Assembly: GCF_000522985.1 (NCBI RefSeq)
Contig: NZ_CP007129.1
Coordinates: 620,001-684,000 of the forward strand
Length of the DNA: 64,000 nt
Direction of reading: 5' to 3'
Origin: Gemmatirosa kalamazoonensis
Lineage (GTDB): Bacteria; Gemmatimonadota; Gemmatimonadetes; Gemmatimonadales; Gemmatimonadaceae
Position 1 is the first letter of the stretch, and each line of letters begins with the position of its first letter. Positions 23,591 through 28,048 of this stretch are shown here, one piece after another. The position numbers and the translations under genes were made by a program. Below the pieces are notes generated by a model. The model searched no databases, was not told the origin of the DNA, and saw only the letters and a program-made list of their open reading frames with translations.

Positions 23591-25132
23591 CTAACGCGCG
23601 GCCGGGGCGAGCGTGACGGGGTAGCTGAGGCGCGCGCCGAACGGCGCGTCGGACGTCGGGTACGTCGTGACGAGCCCCACGAGCGCGTCGCCGCGGCGAT
23701 AGAGCTCGACGTAGACGTCGTACGGCCCGGGGCCCACGTCGTCGGACTCGTGCAGATCGCCGCGGAACCGTCCGGAGAGCCGGCCACCGGTGCCGTCGAA
23801 CGGCGCGAGCTGCACGCCGCGCAGCGACGCCGCCGCGCCGCCGTCGAGCGCGACGTCGACGTCGCGGGCATCGGACACGCGCACGCGGATCGGCGTGTCG
23901 CCGTGCGGCGTGCGGATGGTGCCCGCCCAGCCGCCGACGAGCGCCGGCGGCACCGGTGGCGGCGATGGCGCCGCGCGCTGCATCGACGACTGCGCCACGC
24001 GGACGCTGTCGCTCGATCGGCGCGCGCGGTATCCGGGGATCGCCGCGTCGAGCGCGGCCTCGGTGACGGCGGTCGTGATGCCGGTGCCGGTGTTCGCCAG
24101 CACCGCGACCGCGACGCGCGCGGCGGGAAGCACGAGCAGCGACGCGGAGGCGTCGTCGGTGCCGCCCTGCGCGAACAGCGCGCGGTAGCCGTGATGATCC
24201 GGCTCGATCCACCAGCCGAGCGCGTACGCGCCGTCGCCGTCGCCCGTCGACACCGTGGTGTCGTGCATCAGCGCGAGCGTCGCCGGCGCGAGCGCGCGTG
24301 TCTCGCTCTCCGCGCCGAGGTGCAGCAGGGCGAAGCGCGCGAGATCGTCGACGCTCGCGTATCCACCCGACGCGCCGGGCGTGGAAGTCGTCGCGGAGTC
24401 GTGCGGACCGCGCGCGCGGCTGTAGCGCACCGCGGTCAGCGCGCGCAGCTCCGGCGACGGGCCGATCGACGCATGCCGCATGCGCGCGGGCAGGAAGACC
24501 TCGTCATGCAGCACGCGCGCGAACGGACGCTGCGCCGCGCGCGAGGCGATCTCGCCGAGTATGCCGTAGCCGAGGTTCGTGTAGTCGAAGTGCTCGCCGG
24601 GCGGGAACATCAGCGCGCCGAACCGCGCGACGGCACGATCGATCGGCTGCACGCGGCAGCCGGGTTGGTCGGTGTAGCACACGTTCCAGTACGTCGTCAC
24701 GCCGCTCGTGTGCTGCAGCAGATGCCGCACCGTCGCCTGCGAGCCGCTCCACGGGCCGACGCTCCACAGTCGACCCGACGGCGGCAGATAGTCGTTCGCC
24801 GGCGCGTCGAGCCGGATGCGTCCCTGCTCCACGAGTCGCATGACGGCCGTGGCCGTGAGCGTCTTCGTGACCGACGCGAGGTAGTAGGGCGTGTCGTGCG
24901 TCGCGCGCACCCGGCGCGCGCTGTCGGCGAGGCCGAACGCCTCCTCCCACGCGATGCGCCCGTCCTTCACGACGGCCACGGCGATGGACGGCGTGCCGTC
25001 GGCCGCCATGAGGCGCGTCACCGTCGCGCGTGCCTCGGCGAACGCGTCCTGCGCGCGCGCGTCGGTGGCACGCATCGCGCCGAGGGCGAGAGCGAGGAAC
25101 GCGAGCGTGCGTGCGATGCGGGAGCGGGACAT
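23591..25132 (-). CDS. Secreted serine beta-lactamase-like hydrolase
   Basis: 513 aa with a signal peptide (TLAFLALALGAMRATDARAQ). PF00144 domain with SVTK (SxxK, near 85), YTN (near 180) and a GG motif (FAQGGTDD, near 335) in place of HGG/KTG, then a beta-rich C-terminal domain of about 130 residues. The ATG at 25132 follows GAGGA with good spacing; the far longer ORF start at 25462 would run through the divergent rhodanese gene. It ends in a TAG that is part of the GTTAGGC heptamer. Substrate unknown. Confidence 0.87.
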   Translation of the reverse strand: MSRSRIARTLAFLALALGAMRATDARAQDAFAEARATVTRLMAADGTPSIAVAVVKDGRIAWEEAFGLADSARRVRATHDTPYYLASVTKTLTATAVMRLVEQGRIRLDAPANDYLPPSGRLWSVGPWSGSQATVRHLLQHTSGVTTYWNVCYTDQPGCRVQPIDRAVARFGALMFPPGEHFDYTNLGYGILGEIASRAAQRPFARVLHDEVFLPARMRHASIGPSPELRALTAVRYSRARGPHDSATTSTPGASGGYASVDDLARFALLHLGAESETRALAPATLALMHDTTVSTGDGDGAYALGWWIEPDHHGYRALFAQGGTDDASASLLVLPAARVAVAVLANTGTGITTAVTEAALDAAIPGYRARRSSDSVRVAQSSMQRAAPSPPPVPPALVGGWAGTIRTPHGDTPIRVRVSDARDVDVALDGGAAASLRGVQLAPFDGTGGRLSGRFRGDLHESDDVGPGPYDVYVELYRRGDALVGLVTTYPTSDAPFGARLSYPVTLAPAAR

Positions 25133-25228
25133 GTGACATCCTCGACGGGGAGACTCGTCCTCTCGGACATCGCGCGTCGTGGCACGGTTTGAACGCACCG
25201 AACGGCGCGCGCCGAGCATATTGCAGCC

Positions 25229-25579
25229 ATGAGCGCTCCCGACCACGTCCCGACGATCGACCGCGCGGAGCTCGCCGCCCGGCTCGGCGACCCATCGCCG
25301 CCGGCGCTGTTCGAGGTCCTGCCGCGCGGGTACTGGCGCAAGCATCACCTGCCGGGCGCGCTGAACGCGCCGCCGGCGGAGGCGGTCGCGATCATCACCG
25401 CCGCGGTGCCCGACCGCGACGCGCCGATCGTGGTGTACTGCTGGGACCCTGGCTGACCCCACTCCAGGTACGCCGCCCGTGATCTGGCGGCGCTGGGCTA
25501 CACCGCCGTGCGCGAGTACCGCGACGGGAAGCAGGACTGGATCGCCGCCGGGCTGCCGATGGAGCGGCCCGCGCGGTGA
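25229..25579 (+). CDS. Rhodanese-like protein with in-frame TGA (selenocysteine candidate or nonsense mutation)
   Basis: Single rhodanese domain of 116 codons, split by TGA at codon 76 (25454-25456). Before it: DRAELAARLG, PALFEVLPRGYWRKHHLPGA and the active-site strand PIVVYCWDPG. After it, in the same frame: SRYAARDLAALGYTAVREY, then RDGKQDWIAAGLP, a standard rhodanese end, stopping at 25579. So the domain is whole apart from the TGA. Related rhodaneses carry a second Cys at about this position in the active-site loop (YC-x4-C), so TGA replaces a Cys codon or encodes selenocysteine. A 7-bp hairpin starts 14 bases after the TGA. Without decoding, only a 75-aa fragment is made. A one-base mutation or sequence error is the simple alternative. 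Confidence 0.65.
25471..25492 (+). promoter_or_regulatory. Hairpin downstream of the in-frame TGA (bacterial SECIS-like)
   Basis: CGCCGCC (25471-25477) pairs perfectly with GGCGGCG (25486-25492) around the eight-base loop CGTGATCT. The loop starts 21 bases after the TGA and has G as its second base, which fits general bacterial SECIS rules (loop about 16-37 bases from UGA, G in the first two loop bases). Such GC hairpins are frequent by chance here. Confidence 0.35.
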
Positions 25580-25588
25580 GACGTTCCG

Positions 25589-28048
25589 TTAGGCGAGCAC
25601 CGCCGCCGGCGCGATGCGCGACGCGCGCCGCGCCGGCAGGTACGCCGCGAGCGCGGCGACGGCGAGCAGCACCGCCGCGATGACGAGCAGCGTCGCGGGA
25701 TCGCCGGGCGCCACGCCGTAGAGCTGCGCGCGCAGGAGCCGCGTCGTGGCGACGGCGAGCACGGCGCCCGCCAGCGCGCCGAGCGCCACCGGCGTGAGCC
25801 CGCGCCGCACGACGAGCCTCGCGATCTCGCCCGGCGCCGCGCCGAACGCCATGCGGAGCGCGATCTCCCGCGTGCGCGCGCCCACCGCGAACGCGATCAT
25901 GCCGTACACGCCGACCCCCGCGAGCACGAGCGCGATCGCGCCGAGCGACGAGAGGAGCAGGGTGTTGAATCGCGCGGTCGCGCGCGATGCCGCCACCAGC
26001 TCGTCCATCGTGCCGACGGCGGGAGCGGGCAGTCCGCGGTCCACCGCCTCGACCGACGCGCGCACGGCGCGGGTGAGCGTGGCGGGCGGCACCCGCGTGC
26101 GCGCGACGACGGTGAGCGAGCCCTGCACGGCGCGCCACAGCACCGGTGGCGCCTGCTCGAACGGGATGTAGAGCTCCGGCGCGGGTGGCTGATCGAGGCT
26201 CACGTCGCGCGGCCCCGCGACGACGCCGACCACCTGCATGAAGTGCGTGTGGCTCGGGTCCATCCCCTCGATGCGCCGGCCGATCGCGCGCTCCACCGGC
26301 TCGCCCGGCCACAACTTCGCGGCGAGCGCGTCGCTGATGATGGCGACGTTCGTCGACCGCGCGTCGTCGAACGCGGCGAAGTCGCGCCCCGCGCGGAGGC
26401 GGATGTGCAGCGCGCGGAAGTAGCCGGGGCCGATCAGGCGCAGGTCGGCGAGCAGCCGCTCGCCATCGGTCATCGGCCGCCCCTCGGCGCCGACGCCGCT
26501 GCGGATCGCGCCGCCTAACGGCACCGTGGATGCGAGCGCCGCCGACTCGACGCCCGGCGTGCCGCGCACGCGCTCGGCGATCGCGTGGTACACGGTCGCC
26601 GCACCGGCGAGGTCGGGGTAGCGGTTCGCGGGGATCAGGATCCGCGCGGTGACGACGCGCTCCGGATCGAAGCCGGGGTCGACGTGCGAGATCTCCCACG
26701 CGGTACGCACGAGCAGCCCGGCGCCGCTCAGCAGCGCCATCGCGAGCGCGACCTCGGCGGCGACGAGCACGCTCCGCGCGCGCTGCCGCTCGCGCCCCTC
26801 CCCGCCGCCCCGCCCGCCCTCGCGCAGCGCACCCTCGAGCCGCAGGGCGCCGGCACGCGCGGCGGGCCACGCACCGACGACGAGCGCGCACAGCGCCGAG
26901 GCGCCTAACGTGAACGCGATGACGCGGCCGTCGACGGCGGCCTGATCGAGGCGCGGCACGCCCGGAGGCCCGAGGCGCACCGCCGCCCTCACGAGCGCGT
27001 ACGCGAGCGCGAGCCCCGCGGCGCCGCCGAGCGCGCAGAGCACGCCGGCCTCGGTGAGGAGCTGCGCGACGAGGCGTCCGCGCCGCGCCCCGATCGCCGC
27101 GCGCACCGCCATCTCGCGCGAGCGTGCGCTGCCGCGCGCGAGCAGCAGGCTGGCGACGTTGACGCACGCGATGAGGAACACGAACGACACCGCGCCCAGC
27201 AGCACGAACAGCCGCGCGCGCAGGTCGCCGACCGCGGCGTCCGCGTACCGGCGCGCCTGTGCCGCGTAGCCGCTCCCCCACATCGGAAACCGCGCCGCGA
27301 GCGCGCGCTCGTCGGCCGCCACCGCCGCCGTCGCCTGCTCGACCGAGACGCCGGGCGCCAGCCGCGCGACGACGTTGAGGTAGCGCCGCCGGAAGTCGGT
27401 CAGCTCGTCCGACGTGAGCGCGAGCGGCACCCACAGCGCGTCGCCCGCGCTCGTGGCGTCGAACGCGGCCGGCATCACGCCGACGACCGTGTAGAGCGAG
27501 TCGTCGAGTCGCAGCGTGCGGCCGACGATGGACGGATCGCCGCGGAACTCGCGGTGCCACAGCGCATCGCCGAGCACCACGACGTGCGGCGCGCCCGGTG
27601 CGGCGTCCACCGCCGTGAAGCCGCGCCCCAGCGCGGGCGGCACACCGACGACGTGGAAGAAGTCCGCCGTGGCGCGCGCGCCCGTGACCACCGTCGGCGC
27701 CTCGCCGCCGCGCGCGTCGGTGCGCGAGAGGACGAACGTGTTCTGCGGCTCGACACCGGCGACGGCGTCGAACGCGCGGCGGCGCTCGCGCCACGTCGCG
27801 AGCTCGAGGTTCGACGCCGCCGCCACCGGCGCGCCGTCGCGCGTCGGCTGCAGCACGACGACGCGCTCGGGCCGCGCGAACGGGAACGGCCGCAGCACGA
27901 CGGCATCGACCACGCCGAACACGGCCGCGGTGGCGCCGATTCCGATGGCGAGCGTCGCCACCGCAGCCAGCGTGAACGACGGCGCGCGGCCGAGCTGCCG
28001 CAGCGCGTACGACGCATCGCGCCGCAGCCGATCGAACGAGTTCACCAC
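25589..28048 (-). CDS. ADOP-type ABC transporter permease (MacB/FtsX-like)
   Basis: 819 aa, second ADOP-type permease of the window, without the soluble prefix of the first. N-terminal DASYALRQLGRAPSFTLAAV leads into the first helix (VATLAIGIGATAAVFGVVDA). A MacB periplasmic domain follows, then helices around 275-400 with the REMAVRAAIGARRGRLV loop, a second periplasmic segment and a last FtsX bundle with REIALRMAFGAAPGEI, ending PARRASRIAPAAVLA. No ATPase gene adjoins. The stop codon TAA lies inside a GTTAGGC heptamer. Cargo unknown. It lacks an adjacent PadR gene, so its control is unclear. Confidence 0.9.
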   Translation of the reverse strand: MVNSFDRLRRDASYALRQLGRAPSFTLAAVATLAIGIGATAAVFGVVDAVVLRPFPFARPERVVVLQPTRDGAPVAAASNLELATWRERRRAFDAVAGVEPQNTFVLSRTDARGGEAPTVVTGARATADFFHVVGVPPALGRGFTAVDAAPGAPHVVVLGDALWHREFRGDPSIVGRTLRLDDSLYTVVGVMPAAFDATSAGDALWVPLALTSDELTDFRRRYLNVVARLAPGVSVEQATAAVAADERALAARFPMWGSGYAAQARRYADAAVGDLRARLFVLLGAVSFVFLIACVNVASLLLARGSARSREMAVRAAIGARRGRLVAQLLTEAGVLCALGGAAGLALAYALVRAAVRLGPPGVPRLDQAAVDGRVIAFTLGASALCALVVGAWPAARAGALRLEGALREGGRGGGEGRERQRARSVLVAAEVALAMALLSGAGLLVRTAWEISHVDPGFDPERVVTARILIPANRYPDLAGAATVYHAIAERVRGTPGVESAALASTVPLGGAIRSGVGAEGRPMTDGERLLADLRLIGPGYFRALHIRLRAGRDFAAFDDARSTNVAIISDALAAKLWPGEPVERAIGRRIEGMDPSHTHFMQVVGVVAGPRDVSLDQPPAPELYIPFEQAPPVLWRAVQGSLTVVARTRVPPATLTRAVRASVEAVDRGLPAPAVGTMDELVAASRATARFNTLLLSSLGAIALVLAGVGVYGMIAFAVGARTREIALRMAFGAAPGEIARLVVRRGLTPVALGALAGAVLAVATTRLLRAQLYGVAPGDPATLLVIAAVLLAVAALAAYLPARRASRIAPAAVLA

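Follow-up and report, generated by a model that had tools for sequence, protein, structure and literature searches.

A rhodanese gene of Gemmatirosa kalamazoonensis with a predicted selenocysteine codon in its active-site loop

The DNA under study, a stretch of 64,000 nucleotides from Gemmatirosa kalamazoonensis that is referred to here as the window, contains a short rhodanese gene with an in-frame TGA at codon 76, and this raises the question whether the triplet is read as selenocysteine (Sec), ends translation, or marks a damaged gene. The choice bears directly on annotation, as a gene model with TGA as a stop is shortened to a 75-residue half. A first-pass annotation of the locus had proposed a new selenoprotein rhodanese, with a simple nonsense mutation or a base-call error as equally compatible alternatives. 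From the comparison of homologous genes, hairpins and the selenocysteine machinery set out below, we consider it very probable that the locus is a real selenoprotein gene. The coordinates of its features are collected in the table.

Table. Predicted selenoprotein gene features in the window and the two AhpD-like genes of the same genome
Feature	Position	Strand	Remarks
Seleno-rhodanese gene	25229..25579	+	Single frame; ATG 25229-25231, TGA at codon 76, final TGA 25577-25579; 116 residues with predicted Sec
Cys71 codon	25439..25441	+	TGC; canonical rhodanese active-site position at strand end
Predicted selenocysteine codon 76	25454..25456	+	In-frame TGA; TGA in 8 genes including that of the window, Cys codon in other homologues
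Predicted bacterial SECIS hairpin	25471..25492	+	Same place, spacing and loop start CGUG in 8/8 TGA genes; absent from Cys genes checked
AhpD-like gene, first copy	G000:C4, L113:6634-7230 (TGA 6886)		In-frame TGA in CPFU, GGUC-loop hairpin; diverged from second copy
AhpD-like gene, second copy	G000:C4, L108 (TGA 5689)		In-frame TGA in CPFU, GGUC-loop hairpin; diverged from first copy

The rhodanese frame on both sides of the TGA

The read-through protein matches PF00581 with 40.9 bits (cut-off 22.2) over residues 13-106, a range that spans both sides of the TGA, and the domain thus continues in the same frame past codon 76 as had been proposed. An AlphaFold2 model computed with 17 aligned sequences has the rhodanese fold with a mean pLDDT of 94.6, and the nearest PDB structures, 6mxv (TM 0.84), 1yt8, 3tp9 and 3nhv, are rhodaneses. 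In this model Cys71 directly follows the strand formed by residues 67-70, and residue 76 lies in the loop that precedes helix 78-88. The motif around the TGA reads YCWDPG-U-PHS, so that the triplet stands five residues after the cysteine of the active-site strand, in agreement with the earlier description, and gives the pattern C-x4-U (CxxxxU) in an extended rhodanese active-site loop. Its profile score, its fold and the cysteine that ends the strand leading into the active-site loop assign the protein to the rhodanese superfamily.

Conservation extends well beyond the TGA. All 17 aligned homologues retain Cys71 and either Cys or Sec at position 76, together with the downstream residues Ser79, Leu86, Gly90, Gly100, Trp104 and Gly108, and pN is lower than pS after the TGA in every pair but one. 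The gene stands alone between a divergently oriented upstream gene for a serine hydrolase of the beta-lactamase family (23591-25138, minus strand) and a convergent downstream gene for a MacB/FtsX-type permease (25589-28048, minus strand), both named from their sequences. A comparison of gene neighbourhoods revealed no conserved neighbour genes and offered no hint of a substrate, and promoter and terminator scans found nothing.

Codon 76 and the downstream hairpin in homologous genes

Homologues were sought at the level of phylum, class and order, in up to 395 genomes, and TGA was read through in the whole genomes of one phylum. TGA stands at codon 76 in seven of the eight top-ranking homologues from the protein search of the 395 phylum genomes. 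An order-wide profile search yielded one more TGA gene (G410) and a close relative with a cysteine codon (G439), and a class-wide draw of genomes contained no further TGA gene. With the gene of the window counted, TGA is found at exactly codon 76 in eight genes from eight species, which belong to three families and several genera (G000, G195, G390 and G241 in one family, G213, G384 and G410 in a second, and G293 in a third). The expectation that related proteins would have a second cysteine at this place was borne out by nine other aligned homologues, those of G439, G269, G406, G066, G106, G320, Streptomyces, Embleya and Leisingera. When Sec was replaced by Cys in the query, a contig scan recovered only four relatives, all of them with cysteine, and plasmid records held six relatives, of which the three that were examined (H1, H4 and H5) likewise carry cysteine. 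Note that a homologue from a betaproteobacterial metagenome-assembled genome (CP070775.1, about 3079) has cysteine at this codon and an early in-frame stop (LPEK*FADKH) that is possibly a sequencing error. The homologue tree did not decide between one and several origins of the Sec form.

The sequence following the TGA can form a hairpin exactly as the first-pass annotation had it. A perfect stem of 7 bp, CGCCGCC/GGCGGCG (25471-25477 paired with 25486-25492), closes a loop of 8 nt, CGTGATCT as DNA (25478-25485) and also given as CGUGAUCU, in which G is the second base and is followed by U; the stem begins 14 nt after the TGA and the loop 21 nt after the UGA. We applied the bSECIS constraints of PMC13188914, namely a loop of 3-9 nt, a stem of 4-16 bp, a G as first or second loop base, a distance of 16-37 nt from the UGA and an MFE of -7.5 or below. 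All eight TGA genes have a hairpin within these limits, with stems of 5-7 bp and energies between -7.7 and -13.5 kcal/mol, the latter in the gene of the window. They share the core GCYGCC-CGUGNNYU-GGCGG, always with 21 nt from UGA to loop. In the six cysteine genes tested the hairpin is absent or reaches at most -3.6 kcal/mol; G439, a close relative whose genome does contain tRNA-Sec, lacks it. Aligned at codon 76, the homologues thus leave the proposal of a selenoprotein rhodanese standing.

On its own the hairpin is weak evidence, because 113 of the 924 TGA triplets in the GC-rich window (12%) are followed by an equally good one, with a stem of at least 7 bp within the bacterial SECIS constraints, and the local fold of the single sequence did not stand out from shuffled controls (z = -0.23). 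It is raised above chance by its conservation across the TGA genes. The arginine codon of the loop is CGT in all eight, a triplet that accounts for about 5% of arginine codons in G000 and for 0-16% near the other genes, and synonymous divergence amounts to 0.21 in the hairpin codons versus 0.48 elsewhere after the TGA. When synonymous codons were re-drawn, a stem at least as long as the observed one arose with a chance of 0.07-0.23 per gene; the product of these values is about 4e-8 if the genes are independent, which they are not fully, as the eight sequences, a small sample, are related. Most changes within the stem preserve it: a C-G pair has become U-G in four sequences and, at the outer pair, U-A in one, whereas two sequences have lost the outer pair and one the pair next to it. 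Compensatory change is slight and confined to one pair, so that support for the predicted element comes mainly from constraint on sequence and codons. An Rfam cmscan of the gene gave no match, the eukaryotic SECIS model RF00031 had no match, nor one in any control, which makes it uninformative here, and an RNA model built for the present element returned, over the whole genome, only the gene of the window and two matches at chance level.

Selenocysteine machinery and the reading of the TGA

The genome of G. kalamazoonensis comprises 7.48 Mb in four contigs and is 100% complete. A search for selA, selB, selC and selD found all four, and the objection that the machinery might be absent therefore fails. 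The genes form a cassette within 4.5 kb (L018:5782-10224) on contig C4, a replicon of 1.04 Mb distinct from contig C3, on which the window lies; selA and selB share a strand, and a selD-like gene and tRNA-Sec lie on the opposite one. SelA scores 436.5 bits (cut-off 267.9), SelB 269.9 bits (cut-off 242.25) and tRNA-Sec, the selC product, 68.1 bits (cut-off 47); a SelD-like protein of the AIR-synthase type is encoded between selB and selC.

In a scan for in-frame TGA triplets with coding sequence on both sides, which covered C4 completely and C3 for the most part, the clear C..U cases were the gene of the window and an AhpD-like gene with a CxxU motif that is present in two copies, one of them directly upstream of selA. 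The AhpD-like protein scores above the cut-off of TIGR01926, which represents a known family of CxxU selenoproteins (PMC13188914); both copies are likely selenoproteins of that family, and would give the machinery at least one further client. Among the molybdopterin oxidoreductases encoded in the genome, no TGA lies in the part that was matched.

Among the relatives, tRNA-Sec was detected above the Rfam cut-off in all eight genomes with a TGA gene, including the incomplete assemblies G390 and G293, which are not among the selA matches listed. The genomes with a cysteine gene are divided, with a tRNA-Sec match in G439, G066 and G106 and none in G269, G320 and G406. G439 has two equally scoring matches (contigs C142 and C432), which may stem from contig duplication or represent a genuine second copy. 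As selA is present in 283 of the 395 phylum genomes, co-occurrence with it is weak evidence, and what carries weight is the evidence at the codon level.

Taken together, the locus combines what is expected of a bacterial selenoprotein gene: a frame conserved past the TGA, pairs of homologues with Sec or Cys, a bSECIS element, and SelA, SelB, SelD and tRNA-Sec. Because eight species keep both TGA and hairpin, distant relatives have cysteine and no hairpin, and the machinery is complete, the TGA is almost certainly read as Sec, and the initial proposal of a new selenoprotein rhodanese has gained strong support. We infer that SelB and Sec-tRNA would bind the hairpin, that the UGA would be decoded as selenocysteine at codon 76, and that the product would be a single-domain rhodanese of 116 residues with the pair Cys71-x4-Sec76 in its active-site loop.

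Two rival readings were weighed against this one. The TGA could be a stop with some read-through, the main product then being the 75-residue N-terminal half with a use of its own and the hairpin a regulator of termination. Bacterial release factor 2 competes with selenocysteine insertion, and a truncated product is indeed likely to arise in part. A rhodanese, however, needs the C-terminal half that follows the loop, and that half is conserved in all eight proteins; moreover, the residue exchanged at codon 76 is cysteine, as expected for Sec and unlike what a programmed stop would lead to, so that we regard this reading as highly improbable. Scarcely any credence is left for a pseudogene, in which an ordinary CxxxxC rhodanese of the kind found among the cysteine relatives had suffered a nonsense mutation from TGC, one base away, or a base-call error: one and the same TGA is found in eight species from three families, frame and protein are conserved beyond it, and the hairpin is conserved with it and missing from the cysteine genes, which in practice rules out both accidents on sequence grounds and removes the parity that they had been given at first.

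Proposed active-site chemistry and relation to known rhodaneses

For the predicted selenoprotein, position suggests the roles of the two residues. Cys71 occupies the place that carries the persulfide in rhodaneses and would itself bear it, and Sec76, the counterpart of the second cysteine in CxxxxC rhodaneses, would be its partner. The likeliest chemistry, a guess on which we are evenly divided, is thiol/selenol redox or persulfide transfer, with Sec76 attacking or resolving a Cys71 intermediate through a Se-S bond. Also compatible with a selenoprotein, and entertained here as a tentative alternative, is a reversal of roles in which Sec76 is the main nucleophile and Cys71 resolves, in a peroxidase-like or reductase-like reaction. 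In most selenoenzymes Sec is indeed the attacking residue, and C and U are placed five residues apart in one loop; the fold, in contrast, puts Cys71 at the classical catalytic position.

Five forms of seleno-rhodaneses have been listed in a 2026 review (PMC13188914), with the motifs UxxS, UxxG, CxU (NF041203), UxxG and UxxxxU (TsoB, NF045694). The CxxxxU motif of the window protein is absent from these forms, and the protein reaches the cut-off of none of the NCBIfam selenoprotein models. It shares with TsoB, the fifth and rhodanese/DsbD fusion-like form, the rhodanese domain and two redox residues five apart, and the TsoB profile is co-linear with it (residues 59-113 against profile positions 104-158); as this alignment runs without a shift, Sec76 may, judged by the profile only, match the second Sec of TsoB. 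However, TsoB is a fusion of 572 positions with two Sec residues, whereas the present protein is a single domain of 116 residues with cysteine first and Sec second, and with 27.1 bits where the cut-off is 805, one Sec and no DsbD-like part it falls outside that family. The rhodanese-related (seleno)protein LYCAU, form 3, is similar by motif in having the canonical cysteine and then Sec, but there Sec follows at +2 and here at +5, and the score of 29.6 bits, for which the cut-off is 115, likewise places the window protein outside.

Forms 1, 2 and 4 (UxxS, UxxG and UxxG; PMC1088965, PMC9312934, PMC13188914) have a rhodanese domain with one Sec in common with it. Compared by motif only, they name no cysteine before Sec, whereas the window protein has a conserved one at the catalytic place five residues earlier. 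Note that residues 76-79, UPHS, literally fit the UxxS of form 1, with that cysteine in addition. By alignment and fold, the same extended loop is found in BH2092 of Bacillus halodurans (PDB 3nhv, 3o3w; YCWGPACNGA), a CxxxxC single-domain rhodanese that differs in having cysteine at both places where the window protein would have Sec at the second. We conclude that this predicted bacterial selenoprotein is a member of the rhodanese superfamily and probably represents a new subfamily, its separation from forms 1, 2 and 4 being one of motifs only. That it should constitute a sixth, undescribed form, in which a persulfide-bearing cysteine and Sec within one loop resolve each other and the protein serves as a selenium-dependent persulfide reductase, a carrier of sulfur or selenium, or a selenium donor to SelD, is doubtful at present.

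A literature search by title and abstract found nothing relevant on selenoproteins or seleno-rhodaneses in Gemmatimonadota. The analysis would add a well-supported CxxxxU subfamily of selenoproteins in a phylum for which no selenoprotein study was found. With it, CxxxxC, CxxxxU and UxxxxU would form a natural series within a single fold, and such a series offers a way to test what selenium does in persulfide chemistry.
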